The position numbers were made by a program, and so were the translations under genes. A stretch of 29,188 nucleotides of DNA from a virus: positions 1 to 29,188 of the IMG/VR virus record IMGVR_UViG_3300030331_002683, one strand, 5' to 3'. Positions 3,105 through 19,635 of the stretch are shown here, in pieces; positions within the stretch are counted from its first letter, which is position 1, and each line of letters opens with the position of its first letter. The notes beneath the pieces are model-generated. The model was not told where the DNA came from, ran no database searches, and worked only from the letters and a program-made list of their open reading frames with translations.

Positions 3105-3490
3105 TGAGAGATGATCTCATGGTTCAACAGCAGGTAAAGAACAAGTGGCAGCATATGGTGGGTGTTATCTGTCTTAATCAGACAGGACGCAAGAAGGTGA
3201 AGAAAATACTACCACCTTTTTTTAAAAAATTTCCCACTCCAGAGGTATTATTGCAGTCAAATATTAATGTAATTGCAACACTTTTAGAAGAATTAGGTAT
3301 GAAATATGTACGATCTCAGAGGATCTGGAGGATGTCTGAGGACTATCTAAAATGGGATGGTGAAGACGCAACACAACTATTTGGTATCGGTAAGTATGGT
3401 AGCGATAGCTACGAAATATTTTATAAGAACAGGATACCAGAAAATGTGCAGGACAAAGAATTGAAAAGATATATCAAGGAGGAAATGTGA
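3101..3490 (+). CDS. MBD4-like HhH-GPD DNA glycosylase
   Basis: A 129-residue protein that lines up from memory with the glycosylase domain of mammalian MBD4. It has LNQTGRKKV near residues 25-33 (MBD4: LNRTSGK), then FFKKFPTPEVLL (40-51) and LEELGMKYVRSQRIWRMSEDYL. The helix-hairpin-helix segment is LFGIGKYGSDSYEIF (93-107), followed by NVQDKELKRY (115-124). In that alignment Asp118 matches the catalytic Asp of MBD4 (HPEDHKLNKY). The family removes thymine or uracil from G:T and G:U mismatches, i.e. deaminated (methyl)cytosine. A C5-methyltransferase lies about 1.7 kb downstream in the same operon, a fitting partner. AAGGGCG lies about 8 nt before the start; two adjacent ATGs are possible. 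It overlaps genes on both sides by 4 nt. Confidence 0.8.
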   Translation: MMRDDLMVQQQVKNKWQHMVGVICLNQTGRKKVKKILPPFFKKFPTPEVLLQSNINVIATLLEELGMKYVRSQRIWRMSEDYLKWDGEDATQLFGIGKYGSDSYEIFYKNRIPENVQDKELKRYIKEEM

Positions 3491-4920
3491 TAAAAAAATT
3501 TTATGGTCCTCCCGGTACAGGTAAGACGGAAAAATTAATTAGAAGGGCTTTAGCTTACGTTAGATCTGGCACACCAGTAAAAAAAATAGGATATTTTGCG
3601 TTTACAAAAAAAGCAGCCAATACTGCAAAGGAAAGAATGTTAAATAAAAATAGACAGTTTCAAAAAAAAGATCTTAGATATTTTCAAACACTACATTCTT
3701 TAGCTTTTCACACATTAGGATTAAAGGAAGAAAATGTAATGCAAGATTATCATTATGATGATCTTGGAAAAACTTTAAGTATAAGTGTTAAGGCAAAAAG
3801 AGATATGGATTCTTCTCCATATCTAACTTGTGACAATGAATATTTTCAAATTATAATTAAATCTAGAGAAAAAAATATAGAGGTTTGGGATGAATATTGC
3901 ACAGGGGAATATAGTAAAGATATTAAACCAAATATTTTAAAACACATTGCAGCTAATTATATTAAATATAAATACAGCAATAATTTAATTGATTTTACCG
4001 ATATGATTCATCAATTTATAGAGAAAAAAGATTTATGCCCTAAATTTGATGTAGTGTTCATTGATGAAGCACAAGATTTATCTCCAATACAGTGGATGAT
4101 GTACGACATATTAAAAGCAAATACTAACGATATGTATCTTGCAGGAGACGATGATCAAGCCATATATGCATGGGCAGGTGCAGATGTAGACAGGTTTATA
4201 AAAGAACCTGCAACAGAAATAGTCTTAAAAAAATCAAGAAGAGTGCCCGTAAAAATACAAGAAATATCAAACATTGTAGTGAGTCGTATAGAGGGATTAA
4301 GAGCGGATAAATTATATTATCCGAAAAACGAAGATGGATCTTACGTAAAAATTAATAATTTAAATAACGTAGACCTATCAAAAGATAACTGGTTAATCTT
4401 AACTAGAACAATAAATAAATCTATTGAGATATCAAAAGAGATTAAAACAAAAGGTTTTTTCTTTGAAAATAAATTTATTAAAAGTTTAAATACTAAACTG
4501 CATAAAGCAGCTATTTATTATTCTAGATGGTCTGAGGGACAAGATTTAGAACAAACACAAAAAGAAGATGTTGAAGACTATATGTCAGAGGATAATTGGA
4601 ACGAACTAGTCCCTTGGTATGAGGCTTTTGATAAAGCGAATCTCGAAGATAAAAATTACATTAGAATGCTTCTATCAAACAAAGAAAAATTAACAGAGGA
4701 TCCAAGAATAAAAATATCTACGATTCATGCAGCAAAAGGTGGAGAATGTGAGAATGTAATATTAGTATTGGATAACGCTAGGAAAATTAGAGAAGCTGTG
4801 TTAAAAAGTAGTAAAAAAAGAGATGAAGAACACAGAGTTTGGTACGTAGGAATTACTCGTAGTAAAAATAATTTGTATTTAATGCGAGCTAAAATAGAAA
4901 GGCATGGTTATAATTTATGA
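3487..4920 (+). CDS. UvrD/Rep-type superfamily 1 helicase, compact
   Basis: A 477-residue SF1 helicase with GPPGTGKT (Walker A, residues 7-14), FAFTKKAA (Ia), FIDEAQD (Walker B, 191-197) and GDDDQAIYAWAGA (motif III, 220-232). Motifs V (STIHAAKGGECENVILV) and VI (YVGITRSKNNLYL) lie near the C-terminus. It should unwind DNA 3'-to-5' using ATP. At 477 residues it is shorter than the roughly 700 of UvrD/Rep, so the 1B/2B insertions are probably reduced. The start is GTG at 3487, overlapping the previous stop, with AAGGAGG just upstream. No DnaB-type helicase is in the window, so this may serve as the phage's replicative helicase with the AEP primase (inference). Confidence 0.93.
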   Translation: MIKKFYGPPGTGKTEKLIRRALAYVRSGTPVKKIGYFAFTKKAANTAKERMLNKNRQFQKKDLRYFQTLHSLAFHTLGLKEENVMQDYHYDDLGKTLSISVKAKRDMDSSPYLTCDNEYFQIIIKSREKNIEVWDEYCTGEYSKDIKPNILKHIAANYIKYKYSNNLIDFTDMIHQFIEKKDLCPKFDVVFIDEAQDLSPIQWMMYDILKANTNDMYLAGDDDQAIYAWAGADVDRFIKEPATEIVLKKSRRVPVKIQEISNIVVSRIEGLRADKLYYPKNEDGSYVKINNLNNVDLSKDNWLILTRTINKSIEISKEIKTKGFFFENKFIKSLNTKLHKAAIYYSRWSEGQDLEQTQKEDVEDYMSEDNWNELVPWYEAFDKANLEDKNYIRMLLSNKEKLTEDPRIKISTIHAAKGGECENVILVLDNARKIREAVLKSSKKRDEEHRVWYVGITRSKNNLYLMRAKIERHGYNL

Positions 4921-6394: not shown

Positions 6395-8253
6395 TCATAC
6401 CAAAGTTTGAAGCACAAACAGAATGGATTGAACCAGAAGAATATCCAGATCTAAGATCATACGATGAGATTGCAATTGACTTAGAGACAAGAGATCCTGA
6501 ACTTAAAACAAGAGGATCTGGTTCTGTTATTGGTTTAGGTGAGGTTGTTGGTATCGCTGTAGCTGTGCCTGGAAGAAAATTTTATTTTCCTATTGCTCAT
6601 GGCTCTGGACCAAACATGGACAAGAAAAAAACTTTAGAATGGTTTAAAGATATTTGTGCGTCACCCGCTACGAAAATATTTCATAACGCTATGTATGACG
6701 TATGTTGGATACGAAAATTAGGTATAAAAATCAATGGTTTAGTGGTTGATACCATGATAGCAGCATCTTTGATTGATGAGAACAGATTTAAATATGATTT
6801 AAATAGTTTATCTTGGGACTATCTTGGTTTTGGTAAATCAGAAATAGCTTTAGTTGAAGCTGCAAAGTCAAGAGGACTAGATCCAAAAGCAGATCTATGG
6901 CAACTGCCCGCTATGGAAGTTGGAGCATACGCAGAGAAAGATGCAGAGTTAACTTTAGAACTCTGGCAAATATTTAAAAAAGAAATTATTCATCAAGACG
7001 TAGAATCTATTTTTAATCTCGAGACAGATCTATTTCCTTGTTTGGTCGACATGCGTTTTTTAGGAGTGAGAGTAGATGTAGAAAACGCTCATAGATTAAA
7101 GAAAGACCTAGAGTACCAAGAAAAATTGTTACTGTCAGAAATAAAAAAAGAAAGTAACATAGAAGTTCAAATATGGGCAGCAAGGTCAATTGCCAAAGTT
7201 TTCGACAAATTAAATTTACCTTACGAACGAACTGTAAAAACACAAGCACCTTCCTTTACAAAAAATTTTTTACAAGAGCATCCTCATCCTGTTGTAAAAC
7301 AAATAGCTAAAGCTAGAGAGATAAACAAAGCTCACACTACATTTATTGATACCATAATTAAATATGAACATAAAGACAGAATACACGCAGAGATAAATCA
7401 AATTAGATCTGATGCGGGTGGAACTGTTACTGGTAGATTTAGTTACAACAATCCAAACCTACAGCAACTACCGGCAAGGAACAAGGATCTAGGACCCATG
7501 ATTAGATCTTTGTTTTTACCAGAAGAAGGATGTCACTGGGGTTGCTTTGATTATAGTCAACAAGAACCAAGACTAGTTGTACACTATGCAGGTCTACATA
7601 AGTTTCCAACAGTATACGATGTTATCGATGCATATGAAAATGATTCATCAACAGACTTCCATCAAACTGTAGCTGACATGGCTAAGATTCCTAGGTCACA
7701 AGCAAAGACAATTAATCTAGGTTTATTTTACGGAATGGGTAAAGCTAAGTTACAAGCAGAGTTAGGAGTTTCAAAAGATAAAGCAGCAGAATTGTTTGAC
7801 CAATACCATGCGAAGGTTCCCTTTGTTAAACAGTTAATGAACTCGGCCTCTAATCGTGCACAAGAACGTGGACAGATCCGTACACTTCTTGGTCGGTTAT
7901 GCCGATTTCATTTATGGGAACCAAATAGTTTTGGTATGCACAAAGCCATGCTACATGAAGATGCACTCAGGGAACACGGACCTGGGATAAGAAGAGCATA
8001 TACATACAAAGCATTAAATAAATTAATTCAAGGTAGTGCAGCTGATATGACTAAAAAAGCAATGTTGGATTTATATAAAGAAGGAATATTAGCACATATA
8101 CAAATACATGATGAGTTAGATCTATCTGTTGAATCTGATGCACAGGCAAAAAAGATAATCGAAATTATGGAGAATGCGGTTAATCTAGAAGTCCCCAATA
8201 AAGTTGATTATGAAACAGGAAAAACTTGGGGAGATATTTATGATAAGGATTAA
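6391..8253 (+). CDS. polA: DNA polymerase, family A, with 3'-5' exonuclease
   Basis: A 620-residue replicative-type polymerase of the Pol I family, without a 5'-3' exonuclease domain. The proofreading domain has IDLET (D30, E32), HNAMYD (N99, D103) and YAEKD (Y180, D184). The polymerase domain has motif A DYSQQEPR (387-394, where most Pol I have DYSQIELR), the O-helix RSQAKTINLGLFYG (435-448), and motif C IHDE (572-575). The position equal to E. coli Phe762 is Leu443, with Lys439 and Tyr447 matching Lys758 and Tyr766. AAAGGATCC precedes the ATG, which overlaps the nested gene's stop by 4 nt. It should copy the phage genome with the nearby primase and helicase. Confidence 0.96.
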   Translation: MIIPKFEAQTEWIEPEEYPDLRSYDEIAIDLETRDPELKTRGSGSVIGLGEVVGIAVAVPGRKFYFPIAHGSGPNMDKKKTLEWFKDICASPATKIFHNAMYDVCWIRKLGIKINGLVVDTMIAASLIDENRFKYDLNSLSWDYLGFGKSEIALVEAAKSRGLDPKADLWQLPAMEVGAYAEKDAELTLELWQIFKKEIIHQDVESIFNLETDLFPCLVDMRFLGVRVDVENAHRLKKDLEYQEKLLLSEIKKESNIEVQIWAARSIAKVFDKLNLPYERTVKTQAPSFTKNFLQEHPHPVVKQIAKAREINKAHTTFIDTIIKYEHKDRIHAEINQIRSDAGGTVTGRFSYNNPNLQQLPARNKDLGPMIRSLFLPEEGCHWGCFDYSQQEPRLVVHYAGLHKFPTVYDVIDAYENDSSTDFHQTVADMAKIPRSQAKTINLGLFYGMGKAKLQAELGVSKDKAAELFDQYHAKVPFVKQLMNSASNRAQERGQIRTLLGRLCRFHLWEPNSFGMHKAMLHEDALREHGPGIRRAYTYKALNKLIQGSAADMTKKAMLDLYKEGILAHIQIHDELDLSVESDAQAKKIIEIMENAVNLEVPNKVDYETGKTWGDIYDKD

Positions 8254-15350: not shown

Positions 15351-15725
15351 ATGTTAAAGGAGGAGAGTAAATTTTGGAGACAAATTAAAGACCATAAATG
15401 TAAAATAACTTGGACTAGGATTGAAAATTCTGCATCACATGGCACTCCAGATTTACTAGGATATACCAATAAAAAAACATTTTTCACATTAGAATTAAAA
15501 GTTAAAAAAAGTAAAAAAATATCGTTCTCACCACACCAGATTTCTTTCCATATTAGACACCCTAAGAACACTTTCATCATGGTAAAAGAGTTGCCACGGG
15601 CCCTCGGTCAAGGGGCTATAAAACTTTATGAAGGGACCGAGATCCACGCGCTTGTGGGCGGGACCCACCCGGAGCCTGTGGCTTGTGGCTTATCAGCTTG
15701 TTGCTTGTTCCTTGAACGCTTGTAG
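15351..15725 (+). CDS. VRR-NUC-type nuclease with a repeat-derived C-terminus
   Basis: A 124-residue protein with a compact PD-(D/E)XK nuclease: RIEN (E25), GTPDLLG (D34), FFTLELKVKK (E48, K50) and SPHQISF (Q63). VRR-NUC proteins cut branched or flap DNA, so a junction-resolving role is likely. The fold seems complete by residue about 95. Residues 101-107 (LVGGTHP) are read from the dispersed GC-rich repeat at 15651-15670, and the tail to the stop is read from the GCTTGTG-type sequence. The C-terminus has therefore probably been replaced or extended by repeat insertion. The ATG at 15351 is the only in-frame start that keeps the N-terminal ESKFWRQIK helix. Confidence 0.85.
   Translation: MLKEESKFWRQIKDHKCKITWTRIENSASHGTPDLLGYTNKKTFFTLELKVKKSKKISFSPHQISFHIRHPKNTFIMVKELPRALGQGAIKLYEGTEIHALVGGTHPEPVACGLSACCLFLERL
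15651..15670 (+). repeat. Dispersed GC-rich palindromic repeat, copy 1
   Basis: CTTG followed by GTGGGCGGGACCCACCC minus its first G forms this copy. The imperfect palindrome GTGGG-CGGGA-CCCAC could form a small hairpin. The copy lies inside the 3' end of the VRR-NUC gene. The same core recurs five more times up to 19737, always in this orientation. Confidence 0.85.
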
Positions 15726-15743
15726 CTTGTGGACTGGTGCGTG

Positions 15744-15763
15744 CTTGTGGGCGGGACCCACCC
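15744..15763 (+). repeat. Dispersed GC-rich palindromic repeat, copy 2
   Basis: This copy is identical over 20 bases to copy 1, 93 bp further on, just after the VRR-NUC stop. Both are surrounded by GCTTGTGGCTTG-type sequence (15677-15690 and 15764-15785), which is also seen as a tandem 7-mer at 16691. Confidence 0.85.
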
Positions 15764-15789
15764 TGCTTGTAGCTTGTGGCTTGAGGCCC

Positions 15790-15852
15790 GGATCAGGTGC
15801 ACGCCCGCTCGTAAGCCGTCGCTTAGTCATAACACAGCTAATGACCTGATCC
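15790..15852. repeat. 9-bp inverted repeat with GATC motif
   Basis: GGATCAGGT (15790-15798) and ACCTGATCC (15844-15852) are perfect inverted copies around a 45-nt loop. The arms share CTGATCC with the arms of the array at 16780-17224, so this may be an isolated, diverged unit of the same kind. It lies in the short gap after the VRR-NUC gene. Confidence 0.55.
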
Positions 15853-15876
15853 AGTATTCCACGCGGGAATTCTGTT

Positions 15877-16476
15877 TTAATGTTCACCATATGCAATATT
15901 TTTTACTAACGGATCCCAACACGCCCGACAGTCCAGGCAAGCGTTACCCTGCTGCGGGGCTGGACATGTAGCTGCTTTTGTAACTACAGTCGATGTATTA
16001 GGCCAGGCGCCAGCTGGCGCCTGGTCAATCATGGGCATGGAGAATCTTACAACTAAATTTTTTGGAGCTCTTGCGACGTGTTCTTGGGTCCACGCTTCAC
16101 GAGTCGGGAGCCAGTGCTGCACACCAGGCGTGAGCTCGCAAACTTTAAAAATTTTATTTAGATGATCTAAATCCTGGATATCCCCGGAATCGTGCCATCT
16201 AAAATATTTAGATTTTTTTGAATTAATTAAAAATACCATAGCCGCAACCCATCCAGGATGTTTAATAGATTCTAGCCTTCTATACTGGGCCGCCTGGACA
16301 ACTTTAAAAACGTAGCAGCCCTTGAGCGCGTAGCAATTGCTGCACGTGCTGCCTTCAATTTTTTGAAGCTTCGATCCGGTTTTACATTCCGCAGCCGGTA
16401 GGCCGTAGCTCCAGCCCGGCATTTTCGACGGCTTTGAGAGTCCGCCCACCAGCTGCAATGCTTCTTTTGATTTCAT
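15877..16476 (-). CDS. GP88-like protein (mycobacteriophage gene 88 type)
   Basis: A 199-residue protein matching, from memory, the phage GP88 family: GSTCSNCYALKGCYVF (42-57), then RRLESIKHPGWVAAMVFLI, YFRWHDSGDIQDLDHLNKIF, and LTPGVQHWLPTREAW. The C-terminal part has CPAPQQGNACLDCRACW. The Cys clusters suggest a metal centre. The function is unknown. The gene is clearly richer in G+C than its neighbours and contains a perfect 22-bp palindrome, signs of transfer from another source. The predicted promoter puts the transcription start at the ATG itself, and no ribosome site is present, so the message may be leaderless. Confidence 0.8.
   Translation of the reverse strand: MKSKEALQLVGGLSKPSKMPGWSYGLPAAECKTGSKLQKIEGSTCSNCYALKGCYVFKVVQAAQYRRLESIKHPGWVAAMVFLINSKKSKYFRWHDSGDIQDLDHLNKIFKVCELTPGVQHWLPTREAWTQEHVARAPKNLVVRFSMPMIDQAPAGAWPNTSTVVTKAATCPAPQQGNACLDCRACWDPLVKNIAYGEH
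16003..16024. repeat. Perfect 22-bp GC-rich palindrome inside the GP88-like gene
   Basis: CCAGGCGCCAG is followed directly by its reverse complement CTGGCGCCTGG, with no loop base. On the minus strand it encodes the AGAW region of QAPAGAWP. Perfect palindromes of this length without a spacer are rare in coding sequence. It may be chance under GC-rich codon use, a protein-binding site or a recombination seam. Confidence 0.6.
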
Positions 16477-16690: not shown

Positions 16691-16722
16691 TGTGGCTTGT
16701 GGCTTGTGGCTTGTGGCTTGTG
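16691..16722 (+). repeat. Tandem 7-bp repeat TGTGGCT
   Basis: Four perfect tandem copies of TGTGGCT (16691-16718) are followed by a partial one. The same heptamer appears twice at 15677-15690, and close variants lie near 15764-15785. It immediately precedes the inverted-repeat array. Slippage at such a sequence would vary its length between isolates. Confidence 0.85.
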
Positions 16723-16724
16723 AC

Positions 16725-17224
16725 CAGTAGTGGATGCGATTCGGGCCTATGTCTAGAACAGGTTTTGGCACCCTCACTACTGATCCCAGATCCTTTAGTC
16801 GATGCCCTATCGCCGTTCGAGATATTTCAACGCGAAGAAATATCAGCGATTCACTTCCCGCTAAAGGATCAGGGATCAGGCTTCGTTATTGACTTACGTC
16901 GCTTCACCTGATCCCAGGTCCATTTTCGCTGACAGCATTCTGTCTCCAATGGACCAGGGATCAGGGATCAGTTTCTTCCCGTCGGCATTGTCCCCGCGGT
17001 TTTGCCAACAGTAATAGACTGATCCCAGGCCCATTCGGTAAGCCCCAATAGAGGTGGTCGCTAGCTGTTTTGGTACTGGCGACGAACTCCCAAACAACAC
17101 CGGGTCGAATGGACCAGGGATCAGTAGCCAATGATCTATGCCATTTCTTTCTACTGATCCCAGGTCCATTGTTCTCTAGAATTTCTTCCGCCCGTAATTA
17201 CTGGGGCACAATGGACTAGGGATC
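16725..17224. repeat. Array of alternately inverted 17-19-bp repeats with unique spacers
   Basis: The forward arm CTGATCCCAGGTCCATT, or a close variant, starts at 16780, 16908, 17019 and 17154. The inverted arm AATGGACCAGGGATCAG or a variant ends at 16879, 16964, 17124 and 17224. Each pair encloses unique sequence of about 62, 23, 70 and 37 nt, and units are separated by about 28-54 nt. All four stems share the same central A-A mismatch. Inner hairpins lie in the loops: GATATTTC/GAAATATC, GACAG/CTGTC and GTCGC/GCGAC. Neighbouring units can also pair across the gaps, e.g. GGGATCAGTAG with CTACTGATCCC (17117-17127 and 17151-17161). CAGTAGTG/CACTACTG (16725-16732 and 16775-16782) precedes unit 1. 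The two open frames here are accidental products of the repeats. The function is unknown. Confidence 0.8.
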
Positions 17225-17248
17225 GAGGGCGATTTCTCGCCCTCGATC
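17221..17248 (-). other. 12-bp hairpin with GNRA-type loop
   Basis: GATCGAGGGCGA and TCGCCCTCGATC form a perfect 12-bp stem. Read on the minus strand the 4-nt loop is GAAA, a very stable GNRA tetraloop; read on the plus strand it is TTTC. It lies 6 bp beyond the stop of the minus-strand gene at 17255-17638 and closes the inverted-repeat array. No T-run follows on either strand, so it is not a classical intrinsic terminator, but it could protect a 3' end. Confidence 0.7.
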
Positions 17249-17254
17249 TAAACT

Positions 17255-17638
17255 TTACCAACTACAATCGTAGCCGATTTCTTTTCCTTCCTTCAACATT
17301 TTTTTACACCACTCAAGAAATTTTTTATCTTGAGCCTTGTATTCTTTGACTTGCTCTTCTTGAAACTGTTGTCCCCAAAAAAAGCCGTCATGTGCAAAGC
17401 AATCATGAAAATTATTTTTATATTGCTCCTCTAATCTTTTAACAACATCCTCGGTGATTTTTACACCACCCTCACCTGCGTTAAAACCTAGATTGTAGCT
17501 ATTTTCTTCGCTTTCTCCTTTTTGCTTTTCAAATTCTCTTGAAAAAAACTGTTGCAATCTAGCATGTTTTCTCCAATAGAATTCCTCATGAACTTCGCCA
17601 TTACTATCTCGAAGTCCTGCGTACTGATCTAAACCCAT
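17255..17638 (-). CDS. MGLDQYA-type conserved phage protein, unknown
   Basis: A 127-residue protein of the widespread phage and bacterial family that opens MGLDQYA, followed by EFYWRKHARLQQFF. It has a middle segment NAGEGGVKITEDVVKRLEE and ends near EWCKKMLKEGKEIGYDCSW. The DGFFWG motif and the YWRKH pattern are conserved in the relatives I remember. The function is unknown, and some database entries carry the misleading name phosphoglycerate kinase. AAAGGAGAA lies just before the ATG. Its own promoter and operator lie upstream, so it is a separately transcribed accessory gene. Confidence 0.85.
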   Translation of the reverse strand: MGLDQYAGLRDSNGEVHEEFYWRKHARLQQFFSREFEKQKGESEENSYNLGFNAGEGGVKITEDVVKRLEEQYKNNFHDCFAHDGFFWGQQFQEEQVKEYKAQDKKFLEWCKKMLKEGKEIGYDCSW

Positions 17639-17660: not shown

Positions 17661-17699
17661 TTTATAGGATTATCCTATATTAAATAAAGGTAAAGTCAA
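17661..17699 (-). promoter_or_regulatory. Predicted promoter and palindromic operator
   Basis: On the minus strand TTGACT (17699-17694), a 16-bp spacer and TAGGAT (17677-17672) point at the gene starting at 17638. The -10 box is half of ATAGGATTATCCTAT (17664-17678), a near-perfect palindrome. The arrangement is the same as at 11630-11664. A second set, TATAAT with a flanking TAGGA-type repeat, lies at 17721-17735. Confidence 0.55.
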
Positions 17700-18906: not shown

Positions 18907-19635
18907 ATGAAAGATATAATAAATAAAATCAAAAAGCTTTTAGCGATGTCCGAAAAAAACGGAGCATCGGAAAATGAGTCAATGATGGCATCAGAAAAAG
19001 CTTTGGAACTTTTAAAACAACACAATTTATCTTTAAGTGATATTAAAGATGAAGATCAAGAACCGATCGAAAAAGAAACTCAAGTTGTTGATCAAAATGT
19101 TTGGCAAAGGTGGATAAGACACCAAACCGCTCAATTGTATTTTTGTCAGTTTTACACAACTACAAAATACAATTCCGAAACTTACAAAAAAGAAACGATC
19201 GCTCATTTTGTAGGTAGAGAATCAAATAGAATTGTTGCAACTGAAATGTGCAATTATTTTATTAGAACTGTTAAAAGATTGGTGGAGCAAGAATTTAAAA
19301 AAGTAAAATTATCTCCACTTGCAAAAAGAAGAGCAAAAAGTGCATTTACTTTGGGATGTGCAAATAGACTTTGTAAAAGATTGAAAGAAAAATACCTTTC
19401 AATTGTTCCTGAGTATCAACCAATTGCAAATCCAGATGGTTTACCAATGCTTTACAAATCAGAACAAAAAGCTTTAACTGATTGGTTAGCAAAGCAAGGT
19501 ATAAGATTAACTAACTCTAAATCTAGAATGAGCATTAGAGATAGAATGGCATATGCTAATGGGCAATCAAAAGGAAATGGAATTGGAATTGATACTCAAG
19601 TTAATGATAAAACGAAAGCGAGGTTATTAACATAA
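18907..19635 (+). CDS. DUF2786 domain protein
   Basis: A 242-residue protein whose first 45 residues match DUF2786: IINKIKKLLAMSEKNGASENESMMASEKALELLKQHNLS. The middle (VWQRWIRHQTAQLYFCQFY ... HFVGRESNRIVATEMCNYFIRTV) fits the domain that usually follows in these proteins. The C-terminus is basic and polar. The family is widespread in phages and some bacteria, with no established activity. AAGGAGC lies upstream. It is a single-gene unit with its own promoter, leader hairpin and a flanking repeat on each side. Confidence 0.88.
   Translation: MKDIINKIKKLLAMSEKNGASENESMMASEKALELLKQHNLSLSDIKDEDQEPIEKETQVVDQNVWQRWIRHQTAQLYFCQFYTTTKYNSETYKKETIAHFVGRESNRIVATEMCNYFIRTVKRLVEQEFKKVKLSPLAKRRAKSAFTLGCANRLCKRLKEKYLSIVPEYQPIANPDGLPMLYKSEQKALTDWLAKQGIRLTNSKSRMSIRDRMAYANGQSKGNGIGIDTQVNDKTKARLLT

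Follow-up and report, generated by a model that had tools for sequence, protein, structure and literature searches.

The locus described here raises the question of what an array of alternately inverted repeats is doing in a phage genome, and whether it acts as DNA or as RNA. The window, meaning the whole stretch of DNA that was analysed, is a viral contig of 29,188 bases. Its large terminase subunit shares 66% identity with the one encoded by Pelagibacter phage HTVC027P; we infer its host from its relatives. The sequence-only reading of this DNA described eight arms, alternately forward and inverted, with unique sequence between them and small hairpins inside some of the loops. Comparison of the arms gave the same picture, resolving them into four hairpins within 16780–17224; the loops are unique in sequence, and folding predicts inner hairpins in them. 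That reading also held the region to be GC-richer than the phage and to have no credible gene. Both points stand: the GC content is 0.504 in the array and 0.360 in the window, and neither of two overlapping ORFs (70 and 91 amino acids) is credible, because a relative whose flanks are 91% identical has other sequence in place of the whole stretch in which they lie. The A-A mismatch reported for every stem was correct as far as the plus strand goes, where A lies opposite A at arm position 9 in all four hairpins, but it is on the minus strand that the pairing is conserved, and there the mismatch is U-U. This strand, the active one, had been overlooked, as had the switching self-complementary palindromes found in many loops. 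The minus strand from 16730 to 17256 has a predicted folding energy of −227.9 kcal/mol (z = −8.5), which was equalled by none of 100 shuffled sequences.

The hairpins, all on the minus strand, are designated units A to D. Unit A (17156–17224) is the first in transcript order. Its GATCCC-U.U stem lacks the outer CT/AG pairs and has one additional mismatch, and its tip is a putative kissing hairpin, GCCC-CA-GUAAUUAC-GGGC. In the predicted fold the palindrome lies within a 10-nt hairpin loop closed by GCCC/GGGC; the 8-nt palindrome GTAATTAC in this apical loop (17194–17201, no strand assigned) is replaced in relatives by GTAGCTAC or ATAGCTAT. Units B (17019–17124), C (16908–16964) and D (16780–16879) share the CTGATCCC-U.U stem and carry, respectively, a 72-nt structured tip containing GCTAGC, a 23-nt tip with a small hairpin, and a 66-nt structured tip. 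Immediately 5′ of unit A, and continuous with it, is a leader hairpin (17221–17248, minus strand; core GGGCGA-GAAA-TCGCCC), which is kept in the related locus L251 and is shared with the end of the upstream ORF. This ORF (17255–17638, minus strand; 127 amino acids, no known family) lies directly upstream of the array, and is itself preceded by a weak promoter-like site, TTGACT-16-TAGGAT (17672–17699, minus strand), identified as a consensus match only. No strong array promoter of the type present in many relatives was seen in the window, where the array follows the small ORF, and the array region matched no tRNA and no Rfam family.

Downstream, on the same strand, lies the conserved neighbour GP88 (PF17338/phrog_1392; 15877–16476, minus strand). 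The flanks contain other elements as well. A small GC-rich hairpin, GTGGGCGGGRCCCACCC, has six exact copies on the plus strand of the window (at 15654, 15747, 16615, 17786, 18715 and 19721), all in the terS–terL region, with none expected; it also occurs in 30 related loci, with up to six copies per locus. Runs of a GCTTGNN repeat (CAAGCNNCAAGC on the minus strand) are found at 15696–15780 and 16695–16720, and most related loci have such runs at the 3′ end of the array, adjoining the GP88 promoter. Just 3′ of GP88 there is a further hairpin, GGATCAGGT/ACCTGATCC (15793–15858), within the sole stretch with DNA similarity to HTVC027P (77%).

The arm is widespread in viral metagenomes: its 17-mer occurs in at least about 100 IMG/VR contigs, far above chance, and the general stem pattern with position 9 left free gave at least 119 matches there. 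The same pattern, searched in 84,980 bacterial and archaeal genomes, identified 32 stretches (33 matches in a re-count), which we regard as chance matches because position 9 is neither U-U nor A-A in any of them; the element thus seems to be a viral one. Hundreds of contigs from marine phages have it at one syntenic locus, upstream of GP88 and the small subunit of the terminase, and so does the cultured pelagiphage HTVC027P. Units were also found in phage 023Pt_psg01. A BLAST search of the window region against 50,697 phage records, insensitive as BLAST is for short pieces, matched only HTVC027P, and outside the array. A search based on structure alone retrieved 512 units, of which 443 have the CTGATCCC stem and 46 have TTGAGCCC, the second commonest stem type. 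We note that stems of another type, TCATTATTTGCTGGnCC...GGnCCTGCTAATGATGA, occur in approximately ten loci, are seen 3′ of the units in L133 and L103, and bear tips of the same families, for example GATGCATC or GCGCGC. A module GTTATGTAAG..CTTCACC-TAGCTA-GGTTG stands alone before genes of other marine phages (L626, L627, L629–L632), with other closing stems, as a putative portable kissing module outside arrays.

Of 164 loci with an identified GP88 gene, 162 have it downstream of the array in the same orientation. When GP88 relatives were taken irrespective of the array, 50 of the 63 with at least 1 kb of upstream sequence carried units, and some of the other 13 have a second outer stem, ACUUGA-(G.G)-CCC-U.U, the type that ranks second in the search by structure. 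Some arrays occur with terS and terL and without GP88, and we therefore consider GP88 to be a neighbour and not a required partner. In the HTVC027P transcriptome, gp33 (GP88) and gp34 form a temporal class of their own at 6–9 h, and a text search of that paper found no mention of noncoding RNA (PMC12753301). Seven cysteines and a FRWHDxGD-like motif are invariant in GP88. Its predicted fold (pLDDT 93.5) has no match in the PDB at E ≤ 0.001, giving just weak TIM-barrel and radical-SAM-like matches. On the other side of the array, a DUF2786/DUF7168 protein (18907–19635) matches a CARF-HEPN defence model, though very weakly (E 0.003).

The stem consists of eight constant base pairs (CUGAUCCC/GGGAUCAG), one U-U mismatch and approximately eight freely covarying pairs. 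Across 251 oriented distinct units the outer eight pairs hardly vary, U-U stands at position 9 on the strand that corresponds to the window's minus strand, and the eight pairs after it covary. The inner pairs of 142 units comprise 1021 Watson-Crick, 98 G-U, 3 A-C and 14 other pairs; this set was not picked by arm sequence, since picking loci by one exact arm biases G-U against A-C. Positions 15–17, which were no selection criteria for the units, are paired in 100, 96 and 92% of cases, compared to 43, 43 and 67% in shuffled sequences. The orientation of the units is uniform in 86 of 87 multi-unit arrays. A promoter-like site lies upstream on the array strand in 71 of 157 loci, compared to about 15 in shuffles, the commonest variants being TTGACAATAGGAT(A/T)GTCAAGNATTATATT, and some tips have GNRA tetraloops, which change along with their stems. 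The strand-specific G-U pairs, uniform orientation, promoter-like sites and GNRA loops together identify the A-A mismatch as the complement of a U-U mismatch in RNA, and the array RNA is presumably made. Three possible roles had been put forward for the array. Strand-specific pairing and covariation argue for one of them, a structured RNA. The same four features are contrary to a DNA recombination array, and a decoy for a DNA-binding protein fits poorly with a pairing that is strand-specific and a spacing between arms that varies widely. The sequence-only reading also survives the refutation that it had set itself: related phages carry such arrays, changes in the stems are compensated, and both the loops and the number of units turn over.

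Many tips contain palindromes of 6–12 nt, and in relatives another palindrome is found at the same site. Nonredundant tips contain 95 eight-nt palindromes, the corresponding figures being 31 ± 6 after dinucleotide shuffling and 30 for control segments; palindromes of 6 nt are frequent by chance too, and about one quarter of the distinct tips have no palindrome of 6 nt or longer. IMG/VR was scanned with tip patterns in which the central bases were left blank, the resulting counts being lower bounds. Family 1 (AGCCYT-N8-GKTAAAYAATT) gave perfect palindromes, of 15 kinds, in 89 of 106 distinct contexts among the matches listed, compared to about 0.4 by chance, the non-palindromic remainder being mostly chance-like matches. 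Family 4 (GCCTGTY-N8-TATTAAAAYAAAGCAC), whose variants include GCUCGAGC and GCCCGGGC, gave 73 perfect palindromes of 6 kinds among the 82 matches listed (chance about 0.3); the other nine sites read ACCUGGGU, GCCUGGGC or GUCCGGGC, which correspond to G-U pairs in a self-duplex. For a third family, scanned in the same way, 51 of the 54 matches listed were perfect palindromes, again of 6 kinds. The family of unit A has perfect palindromes (GUAAUUAC, AUAGCUAU, GUAGCUAC) in 8 of the 10 contexts near arrays among the matches listed. Its pattern is loose, with 99 of 109 contexts lying outside arrays, and these 99 contain no perfect palindrome, which makes them an internal control.

Switching palindromes were found in at least ten tip families, four of which were scanned with the palindrome blank. 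Adjacent bases cannot pair within one chain, and we therefore take the switching as evidence that two copies pair with each other; this palindrome-covariation argument has also been used to support the quaternary contacts of OLE and GOLLD (PMC12286853). Two tips of one array carry different palindromes in 92 of 93 pairs, and the 152 tip pairs compared within arrays gave no excess of heterotypic complementarity. Within the window, family-level support for a kissing loop is confined to unit A. These comparisons show a unit made up of a constant base and an exchangeable tip with predicted internal structure, and many tips with loops of 6–12 nt that stay self-complementary while their sequence changes between relatives.

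The tips turn over rapidly. The 361 distinct tips represent 221 sequence families, and one family can occupy different array positions and both stem types. Among 20 pairs of phages with 90–95% identical GP88 DNA, 18 have no tip in common and 13 differ in unit number, although the number of units per array is limited by contig ends; tips are replaced even between phages that are 91–96% identical next door. L251 provides an example: it is 91% identical to the window on both sides, and in place of 16721–17208 (minus strand) it has a single unit with an unrelated tip containing CAGCGCUG. L184 likewise has one unit here to the four of the window. L067, which is 99.7% identical to the window, has kept all the units.

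We consider it likely that the array is part of a self-associating, structured phage noncoding RNA, transcribed from the minus strand and built of swappable dimerisation modules. Like tip loops on two copies of the RNA would join in a homotypic kissing interaction. Since one RNA often has several different palindromes, its copies would align or cross-link, giving dimers or larger assemblies. The constant U-U stem could perhaps serve as a shared docking or scaffolding element, and fast tip replacement might give each lineage a private pairing code, such that an RNA would assemble with itself and not with the RNA of co-infecting relatives. That replacement is selected to stop pairing with the RNA of related phages is speculative. 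The whole picture, a multivalent RNA that uses the lineage's own set of orthogonal self-complementary kissing loops, swapped as cassettes on a constant stem, to form within the infected cell an assembly private to that lineage, is offered tentatively, as a possibility that we rate somewhat short of even.

Four other explanations were weighed, and the switching palindromes are explained by none of them. The constant U-U stem may bind a phage or host protein, as a sponge or a ribonucleoprotein handle, with the tips peripheral and the palindromes minor contacts. A sequence-specific protein site would be expected to have just such a nearly invariant outer half and U-U, next to an inner half that merely keeps its pairing, and the units are repeated; but protein docking leaves unexplained why self-complementarity survives complete replacement of the palindrome. 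It is unlikely as the main explanation, and could hold in addition. The presence of GP88 downstream on the same strand in almost all loci that contain it suggests instead a cis-regulatory leader whose hairpins control transcription or translation of that gene. This is quite improbable: array and GP88 are separated by distances between about 0 and 1.3 kb, 36 of 145 loci have a promoter-like site between the two where 2.9 are expected, GP88 is unchanged while the tips change, and it is missing from some arrays with terS and terL.

The swapping of whole tips and whole arrays between close relatives recalls a DNA cassette or recombination array, in which attC-like hairpins form from one DNA strand and the tips are captured cassettes, and strand bias taken alone fits single-stranded DNA as well. 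The GNRA tetraloops, the G-U variants in the self-duplex and the promoters reading into the array nevertheless speak against this, no attC-type core was seen, and the genes checked include no known recombinase; we regard it as very improbable, although the constant stems may provide the homology for swapping of tips and arrays. The location between the small and large terminase genes, in HTVC027P too, together with the predicted pairing of copies, would suit a packaging RNA like the pRNA of phi29. The phi29 pRNA forms its ring through two different complementary loops, whereas here the contacts are self-complementary, the tips of one array are not mutually complementary, and arrays have anywhere from 1 to 4 units. 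This we consider the least probable of the four, and the 152 tip pairs, with no excess of heterotypic complementarity, led us to reject phi29 pRNA membership.

A self-associating RNA assembled through its tips has its nearest known counterparts in GOLLD and ROOL. These are likewise phage-encoded, strongly structured noncoding RNAs whose copies are joined by kissing loops, and palindrome-to-palindrome covariation of loops has been reported for GOLLD and OLE (PMC12286853). Covariation supporting contacts between copies, the mark of homo-oligomers of this type, was found for the array at the level of sequence. However, GOLLD and ROOL have fixed folds and occur in tRNA islands, whereas the array has 1–4 units with exchangeable tips, adjoins the terminase genes, and has palindromes of 6–12 nt that, unlike theirs, are fully switched in many families. 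The window gave no gathering-score match to GOLLD, ROOL, OLE or any other Rfam 15 family. In 31 related loci the only Rfam 15 match was Flavobacterium-1 RNA (RF02976), in two loci and outside the units: it immediately follows the array, in the same orientation, in HTVC027P (90 bits) and L133. The coordinates are 7141–7261 (minus strand) in L103 and 3473–3594 (minus strand) in L133, and the family is represented in a cultured pelagiphage. This RNA is absent from the window, has no constant stem and does not lie over the array.

In the retroviral dimerisation initiation site, a palindromic apical loop binds the identical loop of a second RNA molecule. Unit A resembles it in having a 10-nt loop that holds an 8-nt palindrome; the array differs in belonging to a DNA phage with no RNA genome to dimerise, and in having several different palindromes per RNA. 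With CRISPR and attC arrays it shares repeated constant elements, unique intervening sequence and cassette-like turnover, but its constant part is a paired RNA stem and its variable part is structured and often palindromic. The earlier exclusion of both systems was sound: the arms are inverted and the loops of the window, at 23–72 nt, have no near-constant spacer length, the constant stem CTGATCCC/GGGATCAG has no RYYYAAC/GTTRRRY core, and no integrase or cas gene was identified in the subset of ORFs checked. A type III toxin-antitoxin RNA (ToxI-like) was also rejected, the tips within an array being unrelated and the downstream gene being GP88, not a member of a ToxN-like family.

A literature search, with most subscription journals outside its reach, found no paper on this RNA, and the tips of the window and related loci belong to no known RNA family in Rfam. 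As far as we found, a constant stem that displays exchangeable, palindrome-switching modules is undescribed, GOLLD and ROOL being the nearest in mode of working. Homo-oligomers of RNA are seldom found in nature. Here one locus provides hundreds of natural variants in which the pairing loops have been exchanged and self-pairing kept, making intermolecular RNA recognition testable by simple mixing, and its occurrence in relatives of the phages of SAR11, the ocean's most numerous bacteria, among them the cultured HTVC027P, makes it accessible at the bench. The locus also indicates that noncoding RNAs of phages can change more quickly than the genes next to them, as expected under diversifying selection. 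If the lineage-private assembly is real, it would constitute a self/non-self code at the level of RNA among competing phages.
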